Both the position numbers and the translations under genes were made by a program. From Ruminiclostridium sp. (GTDB lineage Bacteria > Bacillota > Clostridia > Oscillospirales > Ruminococcaceae), in the NCBI GenBank assembly GCA_016282095.1, contig JAEEJW010000161.1, positions 1-39,267 of the forward strand: a stretch of 39,267 nucleotides of DNA, in the 5' to 3' direction. The notes below the pieces were generated by a model. It was not told the DNA's origin and did not search any database. It was given only the letters and a program-made list of their open reading frames with translations. The stretch's first letter is position 1; the number at the start of each line of letters is the position of its first letter. This document shows, piece after piece, positions 2,935-27,599 of this stretch.

Positions 2935-2969
2935 GTTGATTATAGTATCGTTTTATTTCGCCCGCGGCG

Positions 2970-2990
2970 GCGCGGAGCCCGCGCTCCCAA
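2970..2990. repeat. short stem-loop repeat, copy 2
   Basis: GCGCGG-AGC-CCGCGC, then TCCCAATCCGTCTGTTAAATTCTT in two pieces (TCCCAATCCG and TCTGTTAAATTCTT). The tail AATCCGTCTGTTAAATTCTT recurs unchanged at 27251-27270. The stem bases differ from copy 1 on both arms, so pairing is kept. It lies inside the outer part of repeat element A. Confidence 0.65.
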
Positions 2991-3041
2991 TCCGTCTGTT
3001 AAATTCTTGAAGCGGCGCGTTTCAGCCTCGCAGTCCAGAGT

Positions 3042-3187
3042 AGGCGTACACATTAACGAATCTGCAAGGCGAAGCGATTTAAGTTTAGGCCAAGCCCTTT
3101 TCAAAGGGCGTCATTCTCGAGCGTCAGCGACTCTCAAACACTCAAGCGCAAGCGACTACTTGTTCTCGTTCTCGAGCGTCAGCGGCT
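3042..3187 (-). repeat. gene-3'-end repeat element, copy A (beside queH)
   Basis: Read from the gene side, it has three 17-nt units of the CTCGAGCGCAAGCGACT type (plus-strand spelling) starting at 3116, 3141 and 3171, so spaced 25 and 30 nt. They are followed by a core containing the palindrome GCCCTTTTCAAAGGGC and the block GCAAGGCGAAGCGATTTAAG. The unit nearest the gene contains the queH stop codon. Outer modules shared with the other copies extend to a GTTTTATTTCGCCC boundary at 2950-2963. Copies B, C and D are at 6066, 20949 and 27458. The strand given is that of the adjacent gene. Confidence 0.9.
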
Positions 3188-3784
3188 CTTACTGAAAACG
3201 CAGCCGCAGTAATTCTGTCTGTAGAGACCGTATGTCTGGGAGAGCACTATGGAGCGTTTGTAGCCTTCCTTTTTCTTGAAATCCGAGAACAGGTAAGGCA
3301 CGCCGACACGGGCGGATTCTTCGGCGCCGATCTCATTGAGTTTAGCGGCGTTTTTCAGCGGGCTTATGGACAGGGTGGTGGTGAAGAAATCGAAGCCCCC
3401 GGCTTTTGCGGTGTCGGCAGCTTCCGCGAGCCGCAGACGGTAGCAGCGGAAGCAGCGTTCGCCGCCTTCCGGTACATCTTCGTATCCCTCGGCAATCTCG
3501 AAAAATCTTTCCGGTTCGTACTTCCCCTCGGAGAACTCCACCGGGTATCTGTGGGGCTGTTCGGATATCAGGCGTTTCAGCTCGTTCACGCGCTTGTCGT
3601 ACTCTGCCTTTTCATCTATGTTAGGATTATAGTAATGCGCGGTTATGCGGAAATGTTCCGTCAGATATTCCAGCACATAACTGCTGCACGGGGCGCAGCA
3701 GCAGTGGAGCAGCAGGGAAGGTGTCCTGCCTTCGGAGGCAAGCTCCGCTATCTTCGCGTCAAGTTCCTTCTGATAGTTTATCAT
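3179..3784 (-). CDS. queH: epoxyqueuosine reductase QueH
   Basis: A 201-residue protein of the QueH (DUF208) family, which carries out the last step of queuosine synthesis in tRNA by reducing epoxyqueuosine. It shows the signature LLLHCCCAPCSSYVLEYL (Cys28-30 and Cys33), the central CFRCYRLRL pair, TTTLSISPLKNA and the C-terminal NYCGCVFS. Together these supply the cysteines that bind the iron-sulfur cluster and metal. It is the last gene of a minus-strand group, 5 nt after the YcxB-like gene. The final residues after VFS (KSR and the TGA) are read from repeat element A, so the element sets the natural end of this gene. No other queuosine gene is in the window. Confidence 0.93.
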   Translation of the reverse strand: MINYQKELDAKIAELASEGRTPSLLLHCCCAPCSSYVLEYLTEHFRITAHYYNPNIDEKAEYDKRVNELKRLISEQPHRYPVEFSEGKYEPERFFEIAEGYEDVPEGGERCFRCYRLRLAEAADTAKAGGFDFFTTTLSISPLKNAAKLNEIGAEESARVGVPYLFSDFKKKEGYKRSIVLSQTYGLYRQNYCGCVFSKSR

Positions 3785-3789
3785 CGAGC

Positions 3790-4314
3790 TTATCCCTTTT
3801 TCTGCTTCTCCGTGATTATCTCAGATGTTTCCTGCGCAGTCCCGGAAAGCACGTTGTTCTTTTGCAGTATAATAAGCATATCGTTGTCCGTTTTCAGGTA
3901 AAACGCACGTCTGCCGTCGTAGGCGTCCTCGATCTTATCCCATGGCGTAACGGTCTGCGGCGCTCCGTCCCTTGCGATTATGATACGTTCCGACGATACG
4001 GAGCATACAAGCCCGTCAAAGGACGAGTAGGCCTCGAGCATCTTGTTTGAATAAGTACGCACCATGAAGAACAATACCGCCATAACGGCTATATCCATTA
4101 CCACAGCCGCAAGCACTACGATAAGCATTGATGCCATTTGGGTCGAGAAGTACATTATCAGTGCAGAGACCGGAATGGTCACAAGCAGAGCAGCACATAC
4201 CAGTATCAGCGCGATGCCGCCTTTTGTGCCGCCGGTCATGGTGTGTACGATGTACTCGCTCATAGTCTTCTTGTCATATTTCATTGCGTAATCTGTCATT
4301 TCTGTTTTCCGCAC
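3790..4314 (-). CDS. YcxB-like membrane protein
   Basis: A 174-residue protein with two transmembrane helices (about residues 34-57 and 62-86), followed by a soluble C-terminal domain. There, SSERIIIARDGAPQTVTPWDKI and a later FYLKTDNDMLIILQKN resemble the C-terminal domain of YcxB-like proteins. The function is unknown. The listed start is a GTG about 13 nt after AAAGGAGA; an ATG five codons later (MTDYAM) is an alternative with a poorer ribosome-binding site. It sits between a histidine phosphatase (about 50 nt upstream) and queH (5 nt downstream), probably co-transcribed. Confidence 0.7.
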   Translation of the reverse strand: MRKTEMTDYAMKYDKKTMSEYIVHTMTGGTKGGIALILVCAALLVTIPVSALIMYFSTQMASMLIVVLAAVVMDIAVMAVLFFMVRTYSNKMLEAYSSFDGLVCSVSSERIIIARDGAPQTVTPWDKIEDAYDGRRAFYLKTDNDMLIILQKNNVLSGTAQETSEIITEKQKKG

Positions 4315-4366
4315 CTGCCGGGCGCGTCTCCTTTGCTTTTTTATCCGATGAACCCGTTTTACAGTC

Positions 4367-4975
4367 TTAAACTATCTTTCCTACTATCTCAAACACAGGT
4401 CCGTGCTGCCACATAAAGGTTGACAGCGCGATCTGTATGCACTCGCCCTGCCCGATCGCGAAGTCCGCGGGTCTGCCTTTCGGAAGACCATAGTTCGCGC
4501 AGAGATTCATTATAACTCCGCCGTGGGTTATCATGGCAGCGCGTGTAACCTGATCGTGCATCATATCCTTGAATACTTCTTCAAGCCCGTCAAGACAGCG
4601 CAGCGTGAATTCCTCCATAGTTTCGCCGCCCGGCGCGGATTTGTCGAAGCCGCCTTTCAGCCATTCGGAGTATTCGGGCAGACCTTCAAGCTCGGCAGCG
4701 GTCTTGTTCTCCCATTCACCGAAATCGCACTCCGCGATATTGTCTATCTCCTTGATATAGCGGTCGGGGTAGATGATATCGGCGGTCTCGAGGCAGCGTT
4801 TCAGCGGGCTGGAATAGACCTTCTGAACATCGGGGTAGAGGTGTTCCTGGGCATATCTTGTGACTGCATAGAAGCCCTCGTCGCACAGCGGCAGATCGGT
4901 CAGTCCGATGTAGCGGCCTTCGAGGTTGGCCTGCGTGATCCCGTGGCGTATCAGATAAAGTGTGTAGTTCTTCAT
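4367..4975 (-). CDS. histidine phosphatase family protein
   Basis: A 202-residue phosphoglycerate-mutase-fold protein. The catalytic LIRHGITQAN places the phosphohistidine at His11. SSPLKRCLETADIIYPD supplies the second arginine, AECDFGEWENKTAAEL the acid region, and MITHGGVIMNLC the second catalytic histidine. The length and the ECDFGEWENK block are closest to the alpha-ribazole phosphatase/CobC-like and broad phosphatase groups, but no cobalamin genes are near, so the substrate is left open. AAAGGAAAT precedes the ATG. A minus-strand TATAAT lies upstream at about 5055, without a clear -35 box. Confidence 0.87.
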   Translation of the reverse strand: MKNYTLYLIRHGITQANLEGRYIGLTDLPLCDEGFYAVTRYAQEHLYPDVQKVYSSPLKRCLETADIIYPDRYIKEIDNIAECDFGEWENKTAAELEGLPEYSEWLKGGFDKSAPGGETMEEFTLRCLDGLEEVFKDMMHDQVTRAAMITHGGVIMNLCANYGLPKGRPADFAIGQGECIQIALSTFMWQHGPVFEIVGKIV

Positions 4976-5103
4976 TCTTATTATTTCCTTTATATCACAG
5001 CTTTTTCAGCTTTTATTTTTCTGTTTTGTTTAGCTTATCATACGATATTGGTGTATTATATCTATTGAACAAAGCCGTTTGCTTTTTTTGTAGACTTTGC
5101 CGA

Positions 5104-5132
5104 TTTACAAATAATTAAAAATAATATATAAT
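5104..5132 (+). promoter_or_regulatory. promoter of the XRE regulator
   Basis: TTTACA (5104-5109), a 17-nt spacer and TATAAT (5127-5132) in a very AT-rich divergent intergenic region. It points to the regulator starting at 5192, giving a leader of about 50 nt. Confidence 0.75.
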
Positions 5133-5191
5133 ATCAGTTGTATGCACTCTCAAAATGGCATAACATAAATATCCGAAAGGTTTGTATTTTA

Positions 5192-5866
5192 ATGAACAGC
5201 GATTTTCCGAGAATACTATCTTTACTTCGCAAAGAAAGACATATAAGCCAGAAAGCCGCGGCCGCCGATCTTGGTGTGGCGCAGGCGCTTCTTTCACATT
5301 ATGAAAAGGGCAAGCGTGAATGCGGCCTTGATTTTCTTGTAAAAGTGGCTGACTATTACGGTGTGACCACGGATTATCTGCTGGGGCGCTCGGCTTCGAC
5401 CACAGGAAATCTCATAACTGCGGACGACATTCCGGACGTATCGGGTGAGCGTGAGAAGGCTCACGCGGGGGCGGATATCACGCTTACCATGTCGAGAAAG
5501 CTGATCGTCAACAGCATCGACATAATATACAGCCTGCTTGGCAGGATAGGGAACAGCCGTTTAAGCCTTAAGATCGTGAATATGCTCAATCTTACGGTTT
5601 ACAAGGTATTCCGCCTTGTGTACCGTTCGAACAAGTCGAATACACAGAGTATGTTTGAAGTACCGGACGAGCGTGCGTGTCACTATGCCGACGCGCTCGT
5701 GCATATTGAGGAAGCGGAGGTTGCGTCGCTTCTGAAGAAGGCCTCGGTGGACAATCCGGAGATATCGACTGTTGTGATAGAATCCGAATTTCCGCGTCAG
5801 TCTCCGGCTTTACTGAGCCTTATCAAATCCAGTGAAGCGCAGATCAAGAAGCAGATCGAAAAATAA
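5192..5866 (+). CDS. XRE-family transcriptional regulator
   Basis: The start is moved 18 codons downstream of the ORF-track start. The ATG at 5192 follows CCGAAAGG and begins MNSDFPRILSLLRKERHISQ, a normal start for this family. Residues 1-65 are a Cro/C1-type helix-turn-helix (SQKAAAADLGVAQALLSHYEKGKRE, then VADYYGVTTDYLLGRS). Residues 70-224 form a helical domain of unknown function with a lysine-rich end. It is probably a DNA-binding repressor or activator. It is divergent from the histidine phosphatase group and has its own promoter and terminator, so it may act on that intergenic region. No ligand-binding motif is recognised. Confidence 0.85.
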   Translation: MNSDFPRILSLLRKERHISQKAAAADLGVAQALLSHYEKGKRECGLDFLVKVADYYGVTTDYLLGRSASTTGNLITADDIPDVSGEREKAHAGADITLTMSRKLIVNSIDIIYSLLGRIGNSRLSLKIVNMLNLTVYKVFRLVYRSNKSNTQSMFEVPDERACHYADALVHIEEAEVASLLKKASVDNPEISTVVIESEFPRQSPALLSLIKSSEAQIKKQIEK

Positions 5867-5872
5867 GATTTT

Positions 5873-5907
5873 AAAAAGCCGCGGTTCGCAGGGACTGCGG
5901 TTTTTTT
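5873..5907 (+). terminator. intrinsic terminator of the XRE gene
   Basis: CCGC...GCGG stem flanked by an A-run before and seven T after (5901-5907), directly after the stop codon. The outer A/T runs can extend the stem. The T-run leads straight into the module CTGCCTCGCAGCCGGTA (5908-5924), which is repeated exactly at 27284-27300. Confidence 0.65.
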
Positions 5908-5962
5908 CTGCCTCGCAGCCGGTATATTCTGCTTTCTCCAAGGGGGCTTTCCGAATCGCCGT

Positions 5963-6025
5963 TGACCGCTTAGTTGCGCGCATCGTGCGCGCTTCTGGGC
6001 GGTCACTCACTGCATCGTGCAGTGA
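5963..6025. other. nested stem-loop cluster inside repeat element B
   Basis: Two perfect hairpins with the same CATCGTG apex but different stems: GCGCGCATCGTGCGCGC (5976-5992) and TCACTGCATCGTGCAGTGA (6007-6025). The first is enclosed by a second perfect pair, TGACCGC (5963-5969) with GCGGTCA (5999-6005). No coding potential is seen. The interval 5867-6185 between genes holds only the XRE terminator, this cluster and repeat element B. Confidence 0.65.
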
Positions 6026-6065
6026 CCCACACCCTTCGGCACTGCCTCTTTTGATAGTTTGTAAA

Positions 6066-6186
6066 AGGCGTACTCATGTACGAATCTGCAAGGCGAAGCG
6101 ATTTAAGTTTAGGCCAAGCCCTTTTCAAAGGGCGTCATACTCGAGCGCAAGCGACTTCTTACTCCCGTTCTAAAGCGCAAGCGACT
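6066..6186 (-). repeat. gene-3'-end repeat element, copy B (beside GT4)
   Basis: The core (6066-6138) is nearly identical to copy A, including GCAAGGCGAAGCGATTTAAG and the GCCCTTTTCAAAGGGC palindrome. It has two 17-nt units at 6140-6156 and 6170-6186, spaced 30 nt. The last unit touches the first base of the glycosyltransferase stop codon (TAA at 6186-6188). Confidence 0.9.
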
Positions 6187-7187
6187 TAAAGAGCGAGGGC
6201 GTCGTCGTAGACTTGTTTAAGGCGCTTGGCAACTTCGGTTATGCTCTTGTCCTCGACGGCGCGGAAGCCCTGTTCGCCGAGGGAGGGGAGCCTGCCGTTT
6301 GCGATATCCTCAATTTTCTTCTGAAAACCGTCTGTATCGTCTGCCATGTAGCAGTCAACGTCGCGGCGGAGCCAGTCAAAGCAGGGTATATCGCGGACAA
6401 GCACATTAGCCCGTGCGGCGAGTGCTTCAAGAAGCACTATGCCCTCGGTCTCCTCGTAGGTGGGGAATATGTAGACATCGCTGCCTACATACGCTTTTTT
6501 CAGATCTTCGGGCTGAACGTAGCCCGCGAACAGCAGGTTCGGGAGCTTTGTTCTTACGGCCTTGCGGATCTTGTGGGGTATGGAAAGCATAGGGGTCTTG
6601 CCGAACCAGATGAACTTGTAGTCCGGCATACGGCGCGCAAGCTCCACGAAATCCAGTATGCCCTTGCGCTCAAAGTACAGTCCGACTGCTATGACTACCT
6701 TGTCGTCCTCTTTAAGTCCGAATTTCCTGCGGAATTCCGCCCTGTCGGTGTCCTTCGGTTTGTAGAAATCAAGGTCGATGCCGTTGGAGACCGCGTAGAT
6801 CGGCTTCTTTATGCCGTAGCCGGTCAGCAGTCGCTTTGAATACTCGGTGGGCGTTATTATAACATCGCCCATAAGGTAGCAGGAGACTATCCACTTTTTG
6901 AACAGCTTGGATATGGCGTTCGCGAAGAAGAACGAGTTGCGGAAATCTTCCTCTGTGGAGTGCGCGTGGAATACCACTTTTTTGCCCTGCTTATGGGCTT
7001 TTTTCGCGTACTTGCGGGATTTGAGACCGTAGTAGTTGATATGTATGATATCCCAGTCGTTGTCCTTCGGTTCGAGCGTGAACGGGATCCCGAGACTGGT
7101 GAGCGCGCGCTGCTGATGCATAACAGCTCTTCCGAGCCCGGATATCTTGAATACTTTTATCCCTTCGGTGTAAAGGCAAACTTTCAT
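6186..7187 (-). CDS. GT4-family glycosyltransferase
   Basis: A 333-residue GT-B fold glycosyltransferase. The N-terminal acceptor domain begins MKVCLYTEGIKVFKISGLGR and contains WDIIHINYYGL and VVFHAHSTEEDFR. The donor domain starts near residue 155 with VVIAVGLYFERKGILDFVEL and has the family pattern SDVYIFPTYEETEGIVLLEALA, whose two Glu residues sit where GT4 enzymes bind the nucleotide sugar. It resembles the diacylglycerol glucosyltransferase-like branch, so a membrane glycolipid product is possible but not shown. An AGGAG site precedes the ATG by about 11 nt. It follows the 2-oxoacid oxidoreductase genes after a 63-nt gap with a hairpin, so it may be read through or expressed separately. 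Confidence 0.87.
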   Translation of the reverse strand: MKVCLYTEGIKVFKISGLGRAVMHQQRALTSLGIPFTLEPKDNDWDIIHINYYGLKSRKYAKKAHKQGKKVVFHAHSTEEDFRNSFFFANAISKLFKKWIVSCYLMGDVIITPTEYSKRLLTGYGIKKPIYAVSNGIDLDFYKPKDTDRAEFRRKFGLKEDDKVVIAVGLYFERKGILDFVELARRMPDYKFIWFGKTPMLSIPHKIRKAVRTKLPNLLFAGYVQPEDLKKAYVGSDVYIFPTYEETEGIVLLEALAARANVLVRDIPCFDWLRRDVDCYMADDTDGFQKKIEDIANGRLPSLGEQGFRAVEDKSITEVAKRLKQVYDDALAL

Positions 7188-7217
7188 TAATGTAATGTCT
7201 CCTGTATATTTGCAAAT

Positions 7218-7252
7218 GAGCGCATAGAATAACTATGCGCTCTGCTTTTTTT
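7218..7252. terminator. hairpin between korC and the GT4 gene
   Basis: GAGCGCATAG and CTATGCGCTC (7218-7242) form a perfect 10-bp stem with a 5-nt loop. The T-run (7246-7252) is on the plus-strand side; on the minus strand, where both flanking genes lie, only ATTTGC follows. It may therefore act as a partial terminator or RNA-stabilising element after korC rather than a full stop. Confidence 0.5.
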
Positions 7253-7787
7253 AACCGTTGAAATCCATTCCGAGCCTGAGAGCCTTCATATTGGCTTCGA
7301 GCTTGTCTGCCTTCTTCGGCGGTATGCACTTTTTCAGTGCCTTTTCGATGACTGCTTCATCGGTAAGACCGATCTCCTTGAGCATCTTGCCGGCGAGGAT
7401 AATGTTCGCCATGCCCTTGAGACCGTTTTCGTTCGCCATTCCCGTAGCGGGGATGTAGAAGCACTTGATGTCGGTGCGGTCGCTTGTGCCTTCAACGAGC
7501 GTGCTGTCGATGAAAGCCATGCCGCCTGCCTTGACGGAGCCGATGAACTTGTCGAAGCTCGGGGTGTTCATTACCATGAGCTCGGTGGGGTTGAGGATAA
7601 GGGGCGAACCGATCGGCAGATCGGACAGCGTTACCGAGCAGTTGCAGGTACCGCCGCGCATCTCGGGGCCGTAGGACGGCAGCCACGATACTTCCTTGCC
7701 TGCGTAAAGTCCCGCGTAAGCTATGAGCTTGCCTGCGAACAGTATGCCCTGTCCGCCGAAGCCCGCAAGAAGAAATTCGTTCGTCAT
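7251..7787 (-). CDS. korC: 2-oxoacid:ferredoxin oxidoreductase, gamma subunit
   Basis: A 178-residue gamma subunit of a CoA-acylating 2-oxoacid:ferredoxin oxidoreductase. It begins FLLAGFGGQGILFAGKLIAYAG and has SYGPEMRGGTCNCSVTLSD, both hallmarks of the family. It works in a four-subunit complex with the three genes upstream, oxidising a 2-oxoacid and CoA to acyl-CoA, CO2 and reduced ferredoxin. Its ATG overlaps the beta-subunit stop (ATGA). The substrate could be 2-oxoglutarate or branched-chain 2-oxoacids (Kor versus Vor). The gene symbol follows the Kor naming only by convention. Confidence 0.92.
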   Translation of the reverse strand: MTNEFLLAGFGGQGILFAGKLIAYAGLYAGKEVSWLPSYGPEMRGGTCNCSVTLSDLPIGSPLILNPTELMVMNTPSFDKFIGSVKAGGMAFIDSTLVEGTSDRTDIKCFYIPATGMANENGLKGMANIILAGKMLKEIGLTDEAVIEKALKKCIPPKKADKLEANMKALRLGMDFNG

Positions 7788-11342: not shown

Positions 11343-11419
11343 CACTTTTTTGCGTTTTATTTGTAAATCAGTGAATTGTCCCATAATTGAGTTGAAAAAA
11401 GGAAAAAAATATGCTATAA

Positions 11420-11440
11420 GCGCGGAGCCCGCGCCCCCGA
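11420..11440. repeat. short stem-loop repeat, isolated copy
   Basis: GCGCGG-AGC-CCGCGC, then CCCCGA, between the divergent promoters of the oxidoreductase unit and polA. It is the only member not near one of the larger repeat elements, showing that the hairpin can occur alone. Confidence 0.6.
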
Positions 11441-11483
11441 TATTATCCCGGAAAGTTCTGAATAATTTTTATTTTCTTCTCCA

Positions 11484-11512
11484 TTGAATTTTTCTTCTAT
11501 ATATGTTATAAT
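11484..11512 (+). promoter_or_regulatory. promoter of polA
   Basis: TTGAAT (11484-11489), 17-nt spacer, TATAAT (11507-11512), with an extended -10 (TGTTATAAT). The predicted start is about 30 nt before the polA ATG. Confidence 0.8.
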
Positions 11513-11550
11513 AATATTCAACGTGTTCCGCGATGAAAAGGAGGGCATTT

Positions 11551-14584: not shown

Positions 14585-16243
14585 ATGAAAGGTCAACTCA
14601 GAAGTCTGTTACAGAGAAATACGTTCCTGCCCGGCATAGTAAGCGCCGTTCTGTTCGTGATACTGCTGATAATCGGCATCACAGGCGGGAATGCGGCAGT
14701 GCTGATAATCTCGCTGATCGGAGCGGCCGCAAGTGTGGGACTGTGCTTTTTCAGCCTGTCGCAGTACAGAAAGCAGATAATAGAGCCTGTCGAAAAGCTT
14801 GCTGATTCGGCTTCTGCGTACCTTTCCGGAGAGTATGACAAGGCATCGGTGAAGATAAGCAGCGGCACAGAGCTGGACAAGGTCGCGGAAACGATGAATA
14901 TTACAGCTCTGACCGGCGGATTCGTGACAGATATTATCTCCGATATCGCGAACGGCGACTTCACCCGTGATGTTTCCGGCCTTCCGGACGATATCGCGCT
15001 CACAAAGGGCGTCAAGAGCGTCTATTACAATATGTCAAAGGCTTTCAGCGATCTTGCCGGAGGCGCGGAGAAGGTCAACGAGGACGGCAACCGCGTTTCG
15101 CAGGCTTCGATGACGCTCTCCCAGGGCGTTACCGCACAGGCAAGCACCGTAGAGGAGCTTGCTTCGACGATCAACGAAGTAAGAAATGCCGTTATAAAGA
15201 ACGCGGAGAATGCCCGTGAAGCTCACCGCAACGCGGAAGAAGCCGGAGAAGCGGTGAACGAGGGCTCCGAAAGAATGAAAGAGCTGCTGAAAGCAATGGA
15301 CGACATCAGCAGATCGACCAACGAGATACTTAAATTCAACAAGGTCATAGAAGACATAGCTTTCCAGACCAATATCCTGGCGCTGAACGCCTCCGTTGAG
15401 GCTGCGCGCGCCGGTGATGCCGGCAAGGGCTTCGCGGTGGTGGCAAGTGAGGTGAAGAACCTTGCCGTCAAGTCGCAGGAAGCCTCGCATCAGACCAGCA
15501 CAGTTATTCAGAGCTGCGTCGAGAGCGTTGCCGAAGGTGTTGAAAAGACCCGCCAGACCGCCGATGTTTTCACCGTGATATCCGAAAAGTCCGCCAAGAT
15601 AGGCGAGGGGCTGAACGTGATCTCCGAAGAGTGCGCTGCACAGTCCGAGGCAATAACGCAGATAAACATAGGCGTGGAGCAGATAAGCGGAGTCATCCAG
15701 AGCACCTCCATGACCGCGGACGAGTGTGCGCGGTCTGCGGAAGAGCTTACCGGAAGATCCGGCGACCTGCGTGAGATCGTGGGACGTTTCAGATTCGGAA
15801 ATACAAACAGGACAACATCGTCCGGGAGATCGTCTGCCGTCAGAAGCCCGAAGCCCGCTCCGAAGCCTGTTGAAAAGCCAGCTCCGAAGCCCGTGGAAAA
15901 GCCCGTTCCGAAGCCTGTTGAAAAGCCCGCTCCGAAACCCGTGGAAAAAACCGCTCCGAGACCCGTGGAAAAGCCTGCTCCGAAGCCCGTTGAAAAGCCT
16001 GCTCCGAAGCCCGCAGCAAAACCTGCAGCACCGGCTCCGAAGCCTGCGCCGAAGCCCGTGGAAAAGCCCGCTCCGAAGCCTGTGACACCGGCTCCGGGAC
16101 CCGCGGCAAAACCGGCAGTTTCCGCATCGGCGGGACGCCGGGCCTCCGCGAATGTAATTGCGCCTGCGGCAGAGCCGAGAGGACGCTCCGGCGGCAGCTA
16201 CGCGAACGCCGAGTTCGTGGATATACCGGACAACAAATACTGA
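14585..16243 (+). CDS. methyl-accepting chemotaxis protein with Lys/Pro-rich tail
   Basis: The ATG at 14585 follows CCGGAGGATAG; the ORF-track start 12 codons earlier has no such site. 552 residues. Two transmembrane helices (about 14-35 and 39-58) are separated by only a few residues, so there is no extracellular sensor domain. A HAMP-like stretch and coiled coil follow. The signalling tip is IAFQTNILALNASVEAARAG with GKGFAVVASEVKNLA, near residues 260-300, where CheA/CheW bind. After about residue 420 comes a low-complexity tail of PAPKPVEK-type octads ending in a non-repetitive segment, VDIPDNKY. The input signal is probably cytoplasmic or membrane-borne. No other chemotaxis genes are present. 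Confidence 0.92.
   Translation: MKGQLRSLLQRNTFLPGIVSAVLFVILLIIGITGGNAAVLIISLIGAAASVGLCFFSLSQYRKQIIEPVEKLADSASAYLSGEYDKASVKISSGTELDKVAETMNITALTGGFVTDIISDIANGDFTRDVSGLPDDIALTKGVKSVYYNMSKAFSDLAGGAEKVNEDGNRVSQASMTLSQGVTAQASTVEELASTINEVRNAVIKNAENAREAHRNAEEAGEAVNEGSERMKELLKAMDDISRSTNEILKFNKVIEDIAFQTNILALNASVEAARAGDAGKGFAVVASEVKNLAVKSQEASHQTSTVIQSCVESVAEGVEKTRQTADVFTVISEKSAKIGEGLNVISEECAAQSEAITQINIGVEQISGVIQSTSMTADECARSAEELTGRSGDLREIVGRFRFGNTNRTTSSGRSSAVRSPKPAPKPVEKPAPKPVEKPVPKPVEKPAPKPVEKTAPRPVEKPAPKPVEKPAPKPAAKPAAPAPKPAPKPVEKPAPKPVTPAPGPAAKPAVSASAGRRASANVIAPAAEPRGRSGGSYANAEFVDIPDNKY
15854..16098 (+). repeat. 24-nt tandem repeat coding the transducer tail
   Basis: About eight imperfect copies of a 24-nt unit (first copy CCCGCTCCGAAGCCTGTTGA, then AAAG) encode PAPKPVEK octads with a few variants (PVPKPVEK, TAPRPVEK, PAPKPAAK). 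In-frame repeats of this kind can change in number by slippage or recombination. Confidence 0.9.
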
Positions 16244-19125: not shown

Positions 19126-20946
19126 ATGATGACAAACAATCAGAACATCCTCAAGTGGTTTGAGGAAATGAAGGCTCTCTGCAAGCCCGACAATGTCGTA
19201 TGGATCGACGGCAGCGAAGAGCAGCTCGCTGAACTCCGCGAGGAGGCTTTCAGAACGGGTGAGATGATAAAGCTCAACCAGGAGAAGCTCCCGGGCTGCA
19301 TCTATCACAGAACAAAGCCCAACGACGTTGCTCGTGTTGAGGACAGAACCTTCATCTGCTCGAAGAGGAAGGAAGACGCGGGTCCGACAAACAACTGGAT
19401 GGATCCCGAAGAAATGAAGAAGATGCTCACACCGATGTACGACGGTGCCATGAAGGGCAGAACAATGTATGTTATCCCTTATTCCATGGGTCCGATCGGT
19501 TCCTATATCGCAAAGACAGGTATCGAGCTCACAGACTCCATCTATGTCGTTCTTAACATGGCTATCATGACAAGAATGGGCAAGAAGGTGCTCGACGCGT
19601 TCCCGGAGGACAGCAACGACTTCGTTCGCGGTCTCCATTCCAAGGCTGACGTTGATCCCGAGAAGAGATACATCGTTCAGTTCCCCGAGGAGAACACGAT
19701 CTGGTCTATCAACTCCGCTTACGGCGGAAACGTTCTGCTGGGCAAGAAGTGCTTCGCTCTGCGTATCGCTTCCTACCAGGGCAAGAACGAGGGCTGGATG
19801 GCCGAGCATATGCTTATCCTCGGCGTAAAGAAGCCCGACGGCAAGATCGTTTACATCTCCGCTGCGTTCCCGTCTGCCTGCGGCAAGACAAACCTCGCAA
19901 TGCTCATTCCGCCCGAGGGATACAAGAAGAAGGGCTATGAAGTATTCACAGTCGGCGATGATATCGCTTGGATGAAGCCCGGCAAGGACGGCAGACTCTA
20001 CGCTATCAACCCTGAGAACGGCTTCTTCGGCGTTGCTCCCGGAACAAATGCGAAGTCCAACTTCAATGCTCTTGAATCCACAAAGAAGAACGCTATCTTC
20101 ACAAACGTTGCTATCAACAAGGACGATATGACAGTATGGTGGGAGGGTCTCGACAAGAACCCGCCGGAGAACGCTCAGGAATGGACAGGTATCGACTGCA
20201 ACGGTAAGGAGTGGACTTCCCAGATCGACGAAAAGACCGGCAAGAAGAAGGTTCTCGCTCATCCGAACAGCCGTTTCACAGCTCCGGCTATAAACTGCCC
20301 GTGCCTCTCTTCCGAGTTCAATAATCCGGACGGCGTGCCGATCTCCGCTATGATCTTCGGCGGCAGACGTGCTTCCACAACTCCTCTGGTATATCAGTCC
20401 TTTGACTGGACACACGGTACTTATGTAGGTTCCGCTGTTTCTTCCGAGACGACAGCCGCGGCAACAGGCGCAGTAGGCGTGCTCCGTCACGATCCTATGG
20501 CTATGAAGCCCTTCATCGGATACAATGTAGGTGATTACTGGAACCACTGGCTCGAAATGGGTGAAAAGCTCGGCGACAAGGCTCCTAAGATCTTCAACGT
20601 AAACTGGTTCAGACAGGACGAGAACGGCAACTTCATGTGGCCGGGCTTCGGTGATAACATGAGAGTACTCGATTGGATCATCGACCGCTGCGAAGGCACA
20701 GTTGACGCTGTTGAAACACCTATCGGCTACGTTCCGAAGCCTGAGGACATCAACATCGAAGGTCTTGAAGGTGAAGTATCCATAGATACTATCAAGCGCC
20801 TCACAGACGTTGATAAGGACCTCTGGAAGAAAGAGATCAAGGAAATGCGCAGATACTATGACGAGGACATCAAGGCCAAGGGCGGCAATATCCCGCAGGC
20901 TCTCTATGATGAACTCGATAAGATCGAAGCTCGCCTGAATAAGTGA
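19126..20946 (+). CDS. pckG: phosphoenolpyruvate carboxykinase (GTP)
   Basis: 606 residues, the full length of the GTP-dependent family, which interconverts oxaloacetate and PEP in the cytoplasm. The kinase P-loop is FPSACGKTN (residues 249-256), with the family's hypermobile cysteine inside it. VYISAAFP before it, FTVGDDIAWMK (metal-binding Asp) and FGGRRASTTPLVYQSFDW are also typical. TAAGGAGAA lies 9 nt before the first of two ATG codons. Codon choice is strongly biased (few rare codons, many AAG/ATC/TTC), suggesting high expression. In anaerobes it often runs towards oxaloacetate and succinate. Repeat element C starts 2 nt after the stop. Confidence 0.97.
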   Translation: MMTNNQNILKWFEEMKALCKPDNVVWIDGSEEQLAELREEAFRTGEMIKLNQEKLPGCIYHRTKPNDVARVEDRTFICSKRKEDAGPTNNWMDPEEMKKMLTPMYDGAMKGRTMYVIPYSMGPIGSYIAKTGIELTDSIYVVLNMAIMTRMGKKVLDAFPEDSNDFVRGLHSKADVDPEKRYIVQFPEENTIWSINSAYGGNVLLGKKCFALRIASYQGKNEGWMAEHMLILGVKKPDGKIVYISAAFPSACGKTNLAMLIPPEGYKKKGYEVFTVGDDIAWMKPGKDGRLYAINPENGFFGVAPGTNAKSNFNALESTKKNAIFTNVAINKDDMTVWWEGLDKNPPENAQEWTGIDCNGKEWTSQIDEKTGKKKVLAHPNSRFTAPAINCPCLSSEFNNPDGVPISAMIFGGRRASTTPLVYQSFDWTHGTYVGSAVSSETTAAATGAVGVLRHDPMAMKPFIGYNVGDYWNHWLEMGEKLGDKAPKIFNVNWFRQDENGNFMWPGFGDNMRVLDWIIDRCEGTVDAVETPIGYVPKPEDINIEGLEGEVSIDTIKRLTDVDKDLWKKEIKEMRRYYDEDIKAKGGNIPQALYDELDKIEARLNK

Positions 20947-20948
20947 GT

Positions 20949-21075
20949 GGTCGCTGACGCTCGAGTGAGAAGAGAGTCGCTTGCGCTTGAGTGCCTCCGG
21001 CGGCCAACCCCTTTAAAAAGGGTTTGGATCCCTAAACAAATCGCTTCGCCTTGCAGATTCGTAAGGTAGTACGCC
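20949..21075 (+). repeat. gene-3'-end repeat element, copy C (beside pckG)
   Basis: Inverted relative to copies A, B and D, and so is its gene. Two 17-nt units (20949-20965 and 20975-20991, spacing 26) come first, then a core with AAATCGCTTCGCCTTGCAGA. The central stem has changed from GCCCTTT/AAAGGGC to ACCCCTTT/AAAGGGTT but still pairs (CCCCTTTAAAAAGGGTTTGG). Outer modules continue through the terminator at 21095 to a boundary GGGCGAAATAAAAC at 21389-21402. Confidence 0.9.
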
Positions 21076-21094
21076 TTTTGAAAGTAAAGAAAAA

Positions 21095-21123
21095 CTGCTC
21101 CTGTCGTCAGGAGCAGTTTTTTT
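21095..21123 (+). terminator. strong terminator downstream of pckG
   Basis: CTGCTCCTG-TCGT-CAGGAGCAG, a perfect 9-bp stem, followed by seven T. A homologous terminator (CTGCTCCTAT arms) stands in the same place in repeat element D at 27405-27439. Confidence 0.92.
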
Positions 21124-21132
21124 CGTGTAAAG

Positions 21133-21282
21133 ATGTCGATAGAAGAAATTCTGAAAGGATTCCCCACTACCCCTCTGCCAAAAGGAGCAGATGACTCTCG
21201 GGGGCGGCAGTCTTTTTCAGGACTTGTCGAACGCGGTCCAACGTGTACAAACGTGGGGCTGAAAAGTAAGCGGACCGTCTGA
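21133..21282 (+). other. micro-ORF-like conserved segment, copy in element C
   Basis: An open frame of 49 codons, too short for the ORF track, starting ATGTCGATAGAAGAAATTCT. The first 14 codons (MSIEEILKGFPTTP) are the same in the copy at 27269-27394, where the only change within them is a synonymous GAA/GAG. After that the frames diverge. There is no ribosome-binding site and it lies just after a terminator, so it may be a conserved DNA or RNA element rather than a gene. Confidence 0.4.
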
Positions 21283-21298
21283 GACAGGCCTGAAAAAG
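21212..21298 (+). other. long imperfect inverted repeat (stem-loop)
   Basis: The left arm starts CTTTTTCAGG (21212-21221) and the right arm ends CCTGAAAAAG (21289-21298). Inner pairs are CTTGTC with GACAGG (one T-G pair) and CGGTCC (21234-21239) with GGACCG (21272-21277), giving about 27-nt arms around a loop of about 32 nt. The T-G pair would be an A-C mismatch on the other strand, so a plus-strand RNA folds better. The 549-nt interval after pckG holds this, element C, the terminator, the micro-ORF segment, the hairpin at 21311 and the degV terminator. Confidence 0.7.
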
Positions 21299-21310
21299 CG
21301 GCGCCCTTTG

Positions 21311-21342
21311 GTTACTTTCCGCCGCTGGAGGGGGAAAGTGAC
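21311..21342 (+). other. hairpin GTTACTTTCC / GGAAAGTGAC
   Basis: A 10-bp stem with one T-G pair and a 12-nt loop, 12 nt after the previous inverted repeat. The minus strand here also reads as a 50-codon open frame (from an ATG at about 21369) ending at 21217, within the listed 87-aa ORF. I do not call it a gene because the hairpins explain the sequence better and no ribosome-binding site is seen. Confidence 0.55.
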
Positions 21343-21452
21343 TCGCCTCGCGGAACGAAACTCCGACATAAAAAAATAATTAAGGCGCGGGCGAAATAAA
21401 ACGTAAAACGAGACTAACGGCTGTGAGGAAAAGCACATAATAACAAGAATAC

Positions 21453-21491: not shown

Positions 21492-21495
21492 TTAT

Positions 21496-22386: not shown

Positions 22387-22431
22387 TTCGCGTCCTCGCT
22401 TTTCGGAGTATTGTGATATTTTACTGTTTTT

Positions 22432-22460
22432 AGTATAACATTACTGCGCCGATTTGTCAA
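22432..22460 (-). promoter_or_regulatory. promoter of degV
   Basis: Minus strand: TTGACA (22455-22460), 17 nt, TATACT (22432-22437). Confidence 0.82.
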
Positions 22461-22489
22461 GAACGTAAAAAATATTTTCTTAAATGATA

Positions 22490-23086: not shown

Positions 23087-23116
23087 TTTTCTACTCCTTG
23101 ATTTCTGCAATATATT

Positions 23117-23698
23117 TTATATTTTTGTAAGAGAATCCGCCCTTATGTATGTGTACATCTGGCCGGCCTCTTCATAGCAGTCCATAACGCCGCGGACACG
23201 GATATCGTCCTGTACTTCGGGGTAATCTCCGGGGTAGGAGGCGCCTGTGAGTATGAATTCAAGCCCCTGCACGCAGCAGGCAGTCGCGTCCGGCACGACA
23301 ACAAAGAAATATCTCGTGTCAGACCCGTCGTAGACCATAGTGTCGAAATATCCGTCTACCAGAAGGCTCTTGCCGTAGTAGCTGTCCGGGTTTATCATCA
23401 TATCGTAGATGACAGAGTATATCATAGTGGAATTCATCTGCGTCAGGTCGATATCCACCGCGGTACCGTCCTGTGACGCGGGAGTTTCCGCCGCGGCAGC
23501 CGTGGTCTCCGGAGCAGCCGCAGTAGTCGCTGAGGCTTTCGGAGCAGCCTCCGAAGCCTGTGCAGCGGCTTCGCTCATTATGTTGTTTATCAGCGCACTC
23601 GGGCTGTCCGGAGCTTTCGCGGCAGGCTGCTGAGCACAGGACGAACACAGAAGAAGCGCCGCAGCTGTAAGAGCGGCGGCCTTTGCAGTTTTTTTCAT
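23117..23698 (-). CDS. lipoprotein, possible OB-fold domain, zinc operon
   Basis: The ORF-track start is too far upstream. The ATG at 23698 overlaps the permease stop (TGATG), and AAGGAGG lies inside the permease end. 193 residues. The signal peptide ends in LLLCSSCAQQ (lipobox), followed by an Ala/Thr-rich linker to about residue 75. The C-terminal domain has SYYGKSLLVDGYFDT, RYFFVVVPDATACCVQGLEF and DIRVRGVMDCYE. The strand pattern and the CC pair resemble the outer part of TIGR03943-type proteins that accompany zinc transporters. A zinc-handling role is inferred from operon position and this likeness. Confidence 0.7.
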   Translation of the reverse strand: MKKTAKAAALTAAALLLCSSCAQQPAAKAPDSPSALINNIMSEAAAQASEAAPKASATTAAAPETTAAAAETPASQDGTAVDIDLTQMNSTMIYSVIYDMMINPDSYYGKSLLVDGYFDTMVYDGSDTRYFFVVVPDATACCVQGLEFILTGASYPGDYPEVQDDIRVRGVMDCYEEAGQMYTYIRADSLTKI

Positions 23699-24537
23699 CA
23701 AGCCTTCCTCCTTGTGAAGAGAGAAACTATACAGAATATAAAGAATACCGCGATATCTGTAACGACGATAGTCGAGCCGACAGGCGTTCCCGCCATTATG
23801 GAGGTGAAGATACCCACACCCGCGCATATAACAGAGATAACGGCGGAGCAGATTATCACGCTCCTGAAGCTGCGGAACACTCTCATAGCCGACAGGGCAG
23901 GGAATATTATGAGCGCCGATATAAGCAGCGAACCCACAAGGTTCATCGCAAGCACGATTATGAGCGCGGTTATTATCGCTATCAGCAGGTTGTAGCCCTC
24001 GGCCTTTACGCCGGCAGCCTTTATGAAGTTCTCGTCAAACGTCACCGCGAATATCTTGTGATAGAACAGCAGGAACACTGCGATAACTATGACCGACATT
24101 ATTATGCAGAGGATAACGTCCTCGGGTTTCAGCGTAAGTATGGATGTTGAACCGAACAGCGTCGTGCAGACATCGCCGGAGATGTTCGCCGAGGAGGGGA
24201 ACAGGTTCATCAGCATATAGCCCACAGCAAGCGCTCCCACGGAGATCATCGCTATTGCTGCGTCGCCGTTTATCTTCGCGTTCTGACCTGTCCGCAGGAG
24301 CAGCACCGCCGAAATAACGGTTATCGGCAGAACGACATACATATTGTTTGTAAGCCCCAGAACTCCCGCTATCGCCATTGCGCCGAACGCGACGTGTGAA
24401 AGCCCGTCCCCGATGTAGGAGAAGCGTTTCAGCACCAGCGTCACGCCCAGCAGGGAGGAGCAGAGCGCTATGAGAAGCCCGACTATCAGCGCGTACCACA
24501 CAAACGGGTAGCTGAAATAAAGCTGTAATTTCGCCAT
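23698..24537 (-). CDS. znuB: zinc ABC transporter permease
   Basis: About 279 residues from the ATG at 24537 (MAKLQLYFSYPFVWYALIVG). Earlier in-frame starts would overlap the ATPase gene. At least seven hydrophobic helices are present, with the ABC-3 family marks LLGVTLVLKRFSYIGDGLSH, the VAFGAMAIAGVLGL helix and NLVGSLLISALIIFPALSA before the last helices. It forms the membrane channel for metal brought by ZnuA. There are 7 nt between this start and the ATPase stop; no good ribosome-binding site is seen, suggesting coupling. A TTG five codons earlier is an alternative start. Confidence 0.9.
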   Translation of the reverse strand: MAKLQLYFSYPFVWYALIVGLLIALCSSLLGVTLVLKRFSYIGDGLSHVAFGAMAIAGVLGLTNNMYVVLPITVISAVLLLRTGQNAKINGDAAIAMISVGALAVGYMLMNLFPSSANISGDVCTTLFGSTSILTLKPEDVILCIIMSVIVIAVFLLFYHKIFAVTFDENFIKAAGVKAEGYNLLIAIITALIIVLAMNLVGSLLISALIIFPALSAMRVFRSFRSVIICSAVISVICAGVGIFTSIMAGTPVGSTIVVTDIAVFFIFCIVSLFTRRKA

Positions 24538-24544
24538 GAATTCG

Positions 24545-25294
24545 TTAGTCAATCCCGTTTTCCGTCCTTTCCACGGATTCTTCCTGTATGTGCGCACTTT
24601 CGGAGAAGATCCTGCCTGTTTCGCTTTTCAGATAATCGGCTGTTCTGCCGAAGAAGAGCTGATGATGCGCACCTATGTGGAGTATGTGTGAAGCGTATCT
24701 GATCGCCGCCCCGAAGTCATGTGATACCATGATTATCGTCACACCGTTCCTGTTAAGCTCCGCGATCAGATCGTAGAGATCGAGCTGCGCCTTCGGGTCG
24801 AGACCGGTGACCGGCTCGTCAAGGAGCAGTACCTTCTGCGCAGCGCAGAGAGCACGCGCGATGAGCACGCGCTGCTGCTGACCTCCGGAAAGCTCGCGGT
24901 AACAGCGCTTCGCCAGATCTGTTATTCCCAGACGCTCCATTGTGCTGCGTACCATTTCTTTTTCTTCCTTCTTGTAGAAAGGCCGCAGTCCGCATTTCGG
25001 CAGACAGCCCGAAAGCACTATCTCCTGCACCGAAGCAGGGAAGTCTCTCTGTATTGCATTCTGCTGCGGCAGGTAGCCTATATCTCCGGCCTTCATATCG
25101 GCAGGCCGTTCCATGATGCCCGACATAGGCTTGTTCAGCCCGAGCAGAGCTTTTATGAGAGTGCTCTTTCCCGAGCCGTTCTCACCGAGTATGCAGAGAT
25201 AATCGCCCTCGGTTATATCGAAGTTCAGACCGCTTACAACGGCGCTGCCCTCCCAGCCGAGTACTATATCCTGACAATGAAGCAGGTTCCCCAT
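24545..25294 (-). CDS. znuC: zinc ABC transporter ATP-binding protein
   Basis: A 249-residue ABC ATPase. Walker A is GENGSGKST, the Q-loop lies in YLPQQNAIQRDFPASV, the signature is LSGGQQQR, Walker B is VLLLDEPVTGLD and the H-loop is VSHD. QNAIQRDFP and PASVQEIVLSGCL are typical of the zinc/manganese uptake branch. It powers ZnuB. It starts 13 nt after znuA ends. The last 25 residues are polar and acidic, with no known role. Confidence 0.94.
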   Translation of the reverse strand: MGNLLHCQDIVLGWEGSAVVSGLNFDITEGDYLCILGENGSGKSTLIKALLGLNKPMSGIMERPADMKAGDIGYLPQQNAIQRDFPASVQEIVLSGCLPKCGLRPFYKKEEKEMVRSTMERLGITDLAKRCYRELSGGQQQRVLIARALCAAQKVLLLDEPVTGLDPKAQLDLYDLIAELNRNGVTIIMVSHDFGAAIRYASHILHIGAHHQLFFGRTADYLKSETGRIFSESAHIQEESVERTENGID

Positions 25295-25307
25295 ACTTAT
25301 CTTTCCT

Positions 25308-26351
25308 TTATTTCAATGTATTTTTCAGCACTTCAAGGTTTTCACGCATCAGCGAGATGTAGGTAGTGCCGGACTCTGCCTCCGCGCTCTTCACGGATTG
25401 TATGGAGTTCAGCGCCGCGATGTTCTGATCCTTGTTCTTTGTGCTGTTTATGATCGTCCGGGCTATGGAGCCGTCGGAATTCTCAATCGTGTATATTGTC
25501 TTTACGCCCAGCTCGTCGAGCTTGTTTGCGAGGAACACCACAGTCTCGAAGCTGGCTTCGGTCTCCGCGGAACAGCCTGCGAATGCAGCGTAGTAATCGA
25601 GTCCGTAGTCCTCCGTGAAGTAGCGGAACGGGAATCTGTCCCCGAATACCACAGTCTTCACGGGCGCCGCGGAAATGACTTCTCTGAAGTCTGCGTCCAG
25701 CTTATCCAGCTCTGCGGAGTAAGCCGTCAGGTTCGCTTTGTATGTATCGGCGTCTGCCGTATCGAGAGCGCAGAGCTTATCGGTGATCTGTCCGCATATC
25801 AGTTTCGCGTTGCTTACGGACAGCCAGACGTGCTCGTCGTATTCGATCTCTTCTTCTTCCTCATGTTCATGCTCATGCTCGTCTTCATCTTCATGCTCAT
25901 GCTCTTCTTCTTCATGCTCATGCTCATGTTCATGTTCCATGCCTTCTTTGAACTCCTCGGCTTTGAGACCGCTGCCGACGGCTTCGAGCAGGCTTAAAGT
26001 CTGCATATTCTTGTTCAGCGCATTCGCGAGGGCATCATCCACCCACTTGTCCGACTCGCCGCCGACGTAGATAAGCAGGTCGCAGTCGGATATTTTTATA
26101 ATATCGTCGGCTGTGGGCTGGAAGTTATGCATATCGGTGCCGCTTCCCAGCAGGTAGGTGATATCGGCTTCTGCGGCCTTATTGCCCATTATCTGTCTTA
26201 CCCAGTCATATTCGGGGAAGACGGTGCAGACTATTTTCAGCTTATCGGAATTTCCGGTGTTTACTGCGGACGCGCTCTGACCGCAGGCGGAAACGCCTGT
26301 TACGATGAGCGCGAGGGCTGCGAATAATGATATTTTCTTTTTGTTTGACAT
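25308..26351 (-). CDS. znuA: zinc-binding lipoprotein of ABC transporter
   Basis: The start is at 26351 (GGAGG 10 nt upstream; MSNKKKISLFAALALIVTG), not 26414. 347 residues. Signal peptide with the lipobox VSAC. The cluster A-I metal-binding fold is shown by VFPEYDWVRQIMG, LGSGTDMHNFQPTADDIIKI (first metal His), YDEHVWLS (second His) and FGDRFPFRYFTEDYGL (third site; Arg/Phe where many homologues have a His). The loop before the second site is very His/Glu-rich (runs of HEHEHEHEEEE), a mark of zinc-specific members that gathers or senses zinc. It delivers zinc to ZnuBC. Confidence 0.95.
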   Translation of the reverse strand: MSNKKKISLFAALALIVTGVSACGQSASAVNTGNSDKLKIVCTVFPEYDWVRQIMGNKAAEADITYLLGSGTDMHNFQPTADDIIKISDCDLLIYVGGESDKWVDDALANALNKNMQTLSLLEAVGSGLKAEEFKEGMEHEHEHEHEEEEHEHEDEDEHEHEHEEEEEIEYDEHVWLSVSNAKLICGQITDKLCALDTADADTYKANLTAYSAELDKLDADFREVISAAPVKTVVFGDRFPFRYFTEDYGLDYYAAFAGCSAETEASFETVVFLANKLDELGVKTIYTIENSDGSIARTIINSTKNKDQNIAALNSIQSVKSAEAESGTTYISLMRENLEVLKNTLK

Positions 26352-26406
26352 AAATTTATTACCTCCGTGATATGAATGTGTTGTCTTTTTTGAGTGAAAG
26401 ACCATT

Positions 26407-26700
26407 CTATTCACGAAGCTCCGTTCTTAAAGTGACCGGCGTGACAGCGTCACATTTACGGAAAAGACGCAGTACAGCGGCGGCCACGGCAAATACGGCT
26501 GTAAAAAGCGCGGTTTCTGCTGCGGCAGCGCGGACACAGGACAGGATCCGTACAAATCCGGCTATCATGCGGCAGACGGCGCAGTCGTCGTCGTGTGTGC
26601 AGTTATGGTGTGAGCAGTTTGCGACGATGAAGAAGGAGCAGACGAGGGCTGCGCACAGCAGGACGGCGGTTAAAATCAGACGCTTTTTTCTTGCGGTCAT
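26407..26700 (-). CDS. small Cys/His-rich membrane protein of zinc operon
   Basis: 97 residues, no named family recognised. A first hydrophobic helix (residues 8-27) is followed by NCSHHNCTHDDDCAVCRMI, a cluster of four Cys and three His that could bind zinc outside the membrane. A second helix lies around residues 60-80. The last residues are basic and polar. It lies 4 nt after the Fur-type regulator and 55 nt before znuA, so it is zinc-regulated with them. Small proteins of this layout accompany zinc uptake genes in related Firmicutes as far as I recall; the molecular role is not known. Confidence 0.75.
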   Translation of the reverse strand: MTARKKRLILTAVLLCAALVCSFFIVANCSHHNCTHDDDCAVCRMIAGFVRILSCVRAAAAETALFTAVFAVAAAVLRLFRKCDAVTPVTLRTELRE

Positions 26701-26704
26701 ACAG

Positions 26705-27103
26705 TTATCCTCTGCATTTCTTACATTTAACGAGGAGTTCTATTTCATCTCCGGGAGCCACATCACCGCAGGCTGCGATATCTTCTTTTATGCGGCGACT
26801 TGTTTCGGTATCGGCGCTGTAGACTTTGCCGCAGACTTTACAGCGCATATTGACTGCGGGCTCGTCGCTGTCGGTGAGGGAATATACATATTCTCTGTTT
26901 TCGGGGTCTATGGTTCTTGTGACGGTTCCGGAATGTTCGAGTTCGCGCAGGAGTCTGTATATTGTACTTCCCGAAGTGAGGTTTCTGGTCTCTTCATGTT
27001 TTTCCATTTCGGAGACTATTTCTCTCACGGTGAAGGAGCTATTAGGGTGATTTTTCAGGAATTCAAGCAGGTTTTCACGTCTTGCGGTTTTATATGTTGC
27101 CAC
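26705..27103 (-). CDS. zur: Fur-family regulator, probably Zur
   Basis: 132 residues, GTG start, with AGGAGG 7 nt upstream. The N-terminal winged helix has NSSFTVREIVSEMEKHEE and GSTIYRLLRELEHSGTVTR. The C-terminal dimerisation domain has the structural-zinc pairs CKVCG and CKKC. The usual HxHxxC sensor motif is reduced to VNMRCKVC, so sensing ligands must come from elsewhere. Zinc specificity (Zur) is inferred from the five following zinc-uptake genes. It heads the operon, and a Fur-box-like palindrome lies in its leader, which suggests autoregulation. Confidence 0.85.
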   Translation of the reverse strand: MATYKTARRENLLEFLKNHPNSSFTVREIVSEMEKHEETRNLTSGSTIYRLLRELEHSGTVTRTIDPENREYVYSLTDSDEPAVNMRCKVCGKVYSADTETSRRIKEDIAACGDVAPGDEIELLVKCKKCRG

Positions 27104-27123
27104 TGTGGTACCTCCTTTTGGAT

Positions 27124-27140
27124 TTGAAATCGGTTTTCAA
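27124..27140 (-). promoter_or_regulatory. Fur/Zur-box-like operator
   Basis: TTGAAATCGGTTTTCAA (plus strand) is an inverted repeat. Its 15-nt core has the 7-1-7 layout of Fur-family operators, with TGAAAAC against TGAAATC (6 of 7 matching). It lies about 7-23 nt after the predicted transcription start of the zinc operon, where a bound repressor would block transcription. Confidence 0.65.
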
Positions 27141-27152
27141 TTTCATTTTTAC

Positions 27153-27181
27153 ATTATAGCAGAATATGTCTGATTTGTCAA
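27153..27181 (-). promoter_or_regulatory. promoter of the zinc operon
   Basis: Minus strand: TTGACA (27176-27181), 17 nt, TATAAT (27153-27158), a consensus SigA promoter directly before the operator. The 494-nt interval to the EAL gene then holds only repeat element D with its modules. Confidence 0.88.
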
Positions 27182-27206
27182 TAGTTTTATTTCGCCCACT
27201 GCGGCG

Positions 27207-27230
27207 GCGGGGTACCCCCGCTGTCAATCC
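27207..27230. repeat. short stem-loop repeat, copy 4
   Basis: GCGGGG-TAC-CCCCGC, then TGTCAATCC; identical stem-loop to copy 1 at 2915, and the first of two in tandem here. Confidence 0.65.
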
Positions 27231-27231
27231 G

Positions 27232-27256
27232 GCGCGGTACCCGCGCGGTCAATCCG
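27232..27256. repeat. short stem-loop repeat, copy 5
   Basis: GCGCGG-TAC-CCGCGC, then GGTCAATCCG. It has the loop of copies 1 and 4 but the stem of copies 2 and 3, and is followed by the same AATCCGTCTGTTAAATTCTT tail (27251-27270) as copy 2. Confidence 0.65.
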
Positions 27257-27268
27257 TCTGTTAAATTC

Positions 27269-27394
27269 TTATTTATTTAGTCTCTGCCTCGCAGCCGGTA
27301 GTTTCGTTATACGTTTCTTTTCGCCCCCGCTTTTTTCTGCTCCTTTTGTCGGAGGGGTAGTGGGGAATCCTTTCAGAATCTCTTCTATCGACAT
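27269..27394 (-). other. micro-ORF-like conserved segment, copy in element D
   Basis: 41 codons on the minus strand from the ATG at 27394, sharing its first 14 residues (MSIEEILKGFPTTP) and the later KGA with the copy at 21133, then ending in a basic stretch (EKKRITKLPAARQRLNK). No ribosome-binding site; it directly follows the terminator at 27405. Listed as a conserved segment, not as a proven gene. Confidence 0.4.
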
Positions 27395-27404
27395 ATTTAC
27401 ACGC

Positions 27405-27439
27405 AAAAAACTGCTCCTATTGTCAATAAATAGGAGCAG
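27405..27439 (-). terminator. terminator downstream of the EAL gene, inside element D
   Basis: Minus strand: CTGCTCCTAT and ATAGGAGCAG pair perfectly over 10 bp around a 9-nt loop and are followed by six T. It should end the nine-gene unit that starts at the promoter at 35424. Confidence 0.88.
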
Positions 27440-27457
27440 AAATTTTATACTCTGTAT

Positions 27458-27599
27458 AGGCGTACTACCTACCGAATCTGCAAGGCGAAGCGATTTAAGT
27501 TTAGGCTAAGCCCTTTTCAAAGGGCGTCATACTCAAGCGCAAGCGACTCTCAAACACTTGAGCGCAAGCGACTACTTGTTCCCGTTCTTGAACGAGGCT
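27458..27599 (-). repeat. gene-3'-end repeat element, copy D (beside the EAL gene)
   Basis: Core 27458-27530 with GCAAGGCGAAGCGATTTAAG and the GCCCTTTTCAAAGGGC palindrome. Units start at 27532, 27557 and (degenerate) 27587, the same 25/30-nt spacing as copy A. The last unit overlaps the EAL stop codon at 27598-27600. Outer modules continue to the GTTTTATTTCGCCC boundary at 27184-27197. Confidence 0.9.

Follow-up and report, generated by a model that had tools for sequence, protein, structure and literature searches.

A modular repeat family tied to stop codons at gene 3′ ends in an uncultured clostridium

Four repeat copies and their architecture

The window, a 39,267-nt stretch of DNA from an uncultured clostridium whose own genome is a 3.0 Mb MAG, carries four copies of a modular repeat, each placed where a gene ends. 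By Pfam, the host genes are queH (PF02677), a family-4 glycosyltransferase (GT4; PF13439/PF00534), pckG (PEP carboxykinase; PF00821), and an EAL gene (PF00563). The earlier note had described four elements sharing GCAAGGCGAAGCGATTTAAG, a palindromic stem, and 17-nt units, all in one orientation relative to the neighboring gene; these descriptions were confirmed, every copy lying sense to the gene that ends there (Table 1). Its further claim, that the unit end lies no more than 2 nt from the stop codon, stood for queH, whose stop a unit spans, and for GT4, where unit and TAA share the final base of the stop. It nearly held for pckG (unit starting 2–3 nt after TGA) and failed for EAL, where the first intact unit lies 27 nt away behind a degenerate one.

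All four copies combine 17-nt units (AGTCGCTNNCGCTYGAG), spacers of ~8–13 nt, a palindromic stem, the core AAATCGCTTCGCCTTGC, and a AGATTCGGTAAGTAGTACGCC-type tail. Read from the stop codon, one arm consists of one to six units followed by a hairpin stem, of which there are several sequence types, and then by the core with its continuation AGATTCG; a terminator, an 83-nt shared piece, and an outer piece with a terminal GGGCGAAATAAAAC are optional modules. Two copies had been called complete and the others short of modules; a terminator is present in copies 3 and 4 and an outer GGGCGAAATAAAAC end in copies 1, 3, and 4. The arm of copy 3, terminator included (20944–21125), has a fold z-score of -5.4.

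Table 1. Modules of the four repeat copies, in window coordinates
Feature	Position	Strand	Remarks
Copy 1, stop-proximal 17-nt unit	3171..3187	-	spans queH stop 3179-3181; unit at -6 from stop
Copy 1, two further units	3116..3157 (3116-3132, 3141-3157)	-	
Copy 1, core 3064-3083 and type A stem 3084-3115	3064..3115	-	
Copy 1, core 3′ part and outer module to GGGCGAAATAAAAC, without terminator	2951..3063	-	
Copy 2, two units	6140..6186	-	last unit overlaps GT4 stop TAA (6186-6188)
Copy 2, core and type A stem	6063..6139	-	element absent in G149; another stem in G150
Copy 2, outer module	5909..6062	-	faces terminator of convergent gene (5276-5866)
Copy 3, pckG stop TGA (20944-20946), then two units (20949-20965, 20975-20991)	20944..20991	+	
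Copy 3, GCCTCCGGCGGCC, type B stem, core (21038-21054), 3′ part	20992..21089	+	
Copy 3, bidirectional intrinsic terminator ACTGCTCC...GGAGCAGT with T run	21090..21123	+	
Copy 3, 83-nt shared module and outer part to GGGCGAAATAAAAC	21124..21402	+	inverted pair with copy 4
Copy 4, two units and degenerate unit touching EAL stop (27598-27600)	27532..27599	-	
Copy 4, type A stem, core (27480-27499), 3′ part	27444..27531	-	
Copy 4, intrinsic terminator CTGCTCC...GGAGCAG with T run	27405..27443	-	
Copy 4, 83-nt shared module and outer module	27185..27404	-	GGGCGAAATAAAAC end abuts promoter

Many copies between convergent genes are two-armed (units-stem-core-terminator-core′-stem′-units′), with the far units lying within ~20 nt of the opposite gene's stop. 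The second arm can use a related core, AAACCACTTCGTTATTAAA, and composites of the forms C1-terminator-C1′ and C1-terminator-C2′ both occur. In a hand tally of contexts, the terminator was retained in 28 of 39 convergent cases versus 4 of 16 tandem cases (p = 0.002), so that it is usually missing from tandem-gene copies. The terminator hairpins look uniform within a species and vary from one species to the next: the own genome has CTGCTCC, G149 has CTGCGCC, and G207 has GCCTGTCAATTC.

The 17-nt unit by itself folds poorly, and the neighboring stem is a covarying hairpin. Across 20 distinct stem sequences, 94% of cells were paired, 7 of the 9 pairs showed double changes, and none of 500 shuffles matched, with the independent events fewer than the cells because the stem sequences are subfamilies picked for a common center. 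Given this poor folding of isolated units, we gave up a reading in which each unit forms a tetraloop hairpin. The bases preceding 214 units were most often GAG (97), TAG (36), and AAG (24).

On its outer side, copy 4 has a GGGCGAAATAAAAC end adjoining a TTGACA-17-TATAAT promoter of a FUR/PadR-like gene (FUR PF01475), end and promoter lying together in 27141–27198. Because this end directly adjoins a consensus-like promoter, the repeat may be said to end at functional DNA on its outer side as well. The segment between copies 3 and 4 (23127–27184), which is bounded by these inverted copies, is itself inverted in G149, as expected from recombination between them.

Spread, orientation, and position at gene ends

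The description of a dense family was borne out genome-wide, on a much larger scale than described and well above chance: the own genome holds 116 core matches (reversed-core control, 0) and 304 units at no more than one mismatch (control, 7). Unit counts were 146 in G149 and 118 in G150; G015 and G133, from the same genus, gave 0 and 4, and controls gave 2–10 per genome. A survey of 71 genomes of the genus showed clear presence of the core family in four (own, G187, G204, and G207), at ~10 to >100 copies per carrier and with fewer copies in the other carriers than in the own genome; three more genomes have a single isolated core match each. G187 and G204 have contig numbers and positions in common with G149 and G150. 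Outside the carrier species, matches in a 149-genome family sample and in public collections were isolated and chance-like, and plasmid and phage collections yielded no family match; four viral contigs and several genome-contig matches to the core were judged to be chance matches. To judge from these genomes, the family is lineage-specific and patchy between related species.

Orientation was assessed at 89 distinct core copies, with genes called by a crude codon score. The gene on the unit side was sense for 73 and antisense for 11 (binomial p about 2e-12). Copy contexts are mainly convergent or tandem and rarely divergent, and 11 copies have their unit side facing a start codon. Sense units fell within -25 to +75 nt of the stop at 87 of 327 distinct gene ends, which is not a genome rate because these ends were chosen near cores, and antisense units fell there at 0 of 327. 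Random orientation and distance to stop codons had been named beforehand as the refuting outcome, and this genome-wide count of 87 sense versus 0 antisense is what was obtained instead; the description of a modular element whose orientation and placement are tied to gene 3′ ends, and which is patchy between species, was thus upheld.

At 51 gene ends of the own genome the units are flush, lying within -16 to +12 of the stop, and in the window units occur at 4 of 38 gene ends. In G207, 13 gene ends were sense and none antisense. In G149, contigs taken without selection gave 13 sense and 7 antisense and other contigs 19 and 2, a smaller sense excess in a genome where the loose unit pattern has more background.

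One possible reading is that the repeats at gene ends are recognized by a DNA- or RNA-binding protein, each being either a nucleoid or gyrase site or the site of an RNA chaperone. The regular unit spacing of 25–30 nt and the palindromic CTCGAG in many units are in keeping with it, but a DNA site needs no sense-only orientation, and we regard this reading as extremely unlikely.

Filled and empty sites between species

Comparison with relatives returned empty sites, which the earlier note had proposed to look for in close strains: G149 is without the element at the pckG and GT4 3′ ends, and G150 has a different version at both. The pckG end reads TAA with a plain terminator in G149 and TGA with units in G150. 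Where the own genome has the element and G149 does not, 18 of 22 sites differ in their stop triplet versus 17 of 51 controls, the latter being gene ends outside operons (p = 0.0002), and where C-terminal length is equal it has changed in 12 of 14 versus 12 of 35 (p = 0.0015). Shortening of the C-terminus by the element showed no significant difference from controls. The stop-change test between G150 and G149 pointed in the same direction with few sites (3 of 4 versus 14 of 44, p = 0.12). Among flush stops, TAG is enriched (14 of 51 versus 13 of 240 other stops, p = 2e-5) because the first unit supplies the AG, TAG-TCGC joining stop and unit.

A native 3′ UTR was detected at 1 of the 22 element sites versus 32 of the 51 controls. 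At L017, 387 nt of element stand in place of 43 nt between stop and terminator; at L051, the element takes the place of 20 nt, and a terminator homologous to that of G149 then follows. L060 is the exception, with an array lying beyond an intact native terminator. Two of the 22 sites, L066 and L042, have unit-less element-like sequence in G149 and are therefore not true empty sites. No target-site duplication was seen in the filled-versus-empty comparison (80–90% identity). In these alignments, the element replaces native sequence from the stop codon onward and is not a simple insertion.

Such a pattern might also be left by a selfish element without gene-end function that lands at any intergenic position, with loss of the copies that damage coding sequence or promoters while ordinary deletions erode native DNA up to the stop codon. 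The rarity of copies between divergent genes and beside start codons would follow, as would the patchiness between species and the way in which the outer module of copy 4 stops at a promoter as units stop at stop codons. This account does not readily explain the 0 of 327 antisense units, the retention of terminators mainly between convergent genes, or the exactness of junctions where a relative at ~88% amino acid identity has no element, and we think it unlikely.

Relation to known repeats and possible modes of spread

Rfam returned no match above the gathering score (weak matches at E 0.3–0.5 were discarded as chance), and no relevant named repeat family was found in the literature on Ruminococcus-type clostridia. 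The suggestion that no named family fits thus holds for Rfam and requires amendment elsewhere, since REP/BIME repeats, as described in PMC3733652 and PMC12306157, follow the same location rule. Like REP, BIME, and REPIN sequences, which exceed 100 copies per genome, the clostridial repeats have a high copy number (116 cores in the own genome, fewer in the other carriers), are extragenic, form inverted dimers or mosaics, and mostly occupy gaps between genes that converge or run in one direction, a few bases off stop codons (PMC3733652, PMC2817692, PMC12306157). Between convergent genes, REPs are mostly <20 bp from both flanking ORFs (PMC3733652).

A REP unit is a palindromic hairpin of 20–40 nt; in the clostridial family the 17-nt unit folds poorly alone, and the adjacent stem is a covarying hairpin. 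The family differs from REPs in its direct tandem units of 17 nt, its several interchangeable stems, and its built-in terminator. It is without the conserved GTAG or CGTC tag, and PMC3733652 reports neither of these REP superfamilies in Firmicutes. GTAG-type REPs have a RAYT, of which none was found in G000, G149, or G150; CGTC REPs are also without RAYT. Because the tag is missing and no RAYT was found, we do not class the family as REP/BIME. Rewriting of the stop triplet is a feature of the clostridial family that we did not meet in the REP literature consulted.

MITEs offer a second comparison, being likewise non-autonomous and near genes, and the composites have inverted ends; yet defined terminal inverted repeats with a target duplication were not seen in the clostridial family at 80–90% identity, no parent transposase was found, and the family replaces native sequence and keeps a fixed sense orientation. 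The G+C-rich hairpins with T runs between convergent genes (21090–21123 and 27405–27443) resemble intrinsic bidirectional terminators, from which they differ in being part of a repeat several hundred nt long whose arms extend to both stops.

Sense-only units, the stop-codon junction, replacement of native 3′ UTRs, stem covariation, and differences between species can be read directly from the genomes compared. A transcribed 3′-UTR cassette fits the fixed sense orientation, the location after the stop and before the terminator, the covariation in the stem, and the dependence of the terminator on context, and we consider that the family is probably a RAYT-less, REP/BIME-like, non-autonomous cassette which now forms the 3′ UTR of many genes. 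Against this reading stand the poor folding of units alone, the failure to find a transposase partner, the 11 start-facing copies, and the lack of a visible target-site duplication at 80–90% identity. Once transcribed, the element would act as RNA, serving as terminator and as a barrier at the mRNA 3′ end. REPs are credited with mRNA stabilization and with reducing translation only when <16 nt from the stop, as cited in PMC12306157; by analogy with E. coli REPs within 15 nt of the stop, the clostridial element could possibly affect ribosome release. Within a genome the family may multiply through copying of its DNA or through recombination, assisted in trans.

A further possibility is that the repeat is mobile and site-specific: an enzyme of its own would insert it at gene ends, perhaps at the terminator hairpin, and the stop-to-terminator segment would be lost in doing so; the enzyme gene would then be missing from the assemblies or outside the families searched. 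The exact replacement of the stop-to-terminator stretch at L017 and L051 accords with such insertion, and since the carrier assemblies are incomplete MAGs fragmented at repeats, multi-copy insertion sequences could be missing from them. The searches that were made speak against it: no Y1 transposase (RAYT/TnpA-REP; Y1_Tnp PF01797, the one transposase family sought) was found in the carriers G000, G149, and G150, with G207 outside the search, and the own genome contains a single reverse transcriptase, of which G149 and G150 showed none. On balance, site-specific insertion appears quite improbable. Seven near-identical Y1 transposase copies were observed in G133, a genome of the same genus with no core copies.

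The surprising parts of the family are its strict sense orientation and its rewriting of the stop codon. A process that senses where translation or the transcript ends could join new copies to genes, for example through an mRNA cut at the stop, a chimeric cDNA, and chromosomal recombination; it would explain why units are only ever sense and why junctions can fall within the stop codon itself (T|AG-TCGC). We judge such joining to be very unlikely, and it is speculation because no reverse transcriptase common to the carriers was found.

In this bacterial lineage a single repeat family has rebuilt the 3′ ends of many genes as far as the stop codon itself. The four carrier species differ in whether a given gene has the element, and they provide a natural experiment on REP-like movement without a known transposase and on why REP-like repeats sit at stop codons.

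Other repeats also lie in the window. A second family (11409–11513), with a TTGAAT/TATAAT-type promoter, lies directly upstream of the start of a polA-like gene; it has dozens of related matches in G149 and G150, and the orthologous gap in G149 is too short for it. The gene at 14585–16243 contains 24-nt tandem repeats (15831–16095) encoding a proline-lysine-rich stretch, and another part of the same gene (~15290–15480) has many matches in related genomes.
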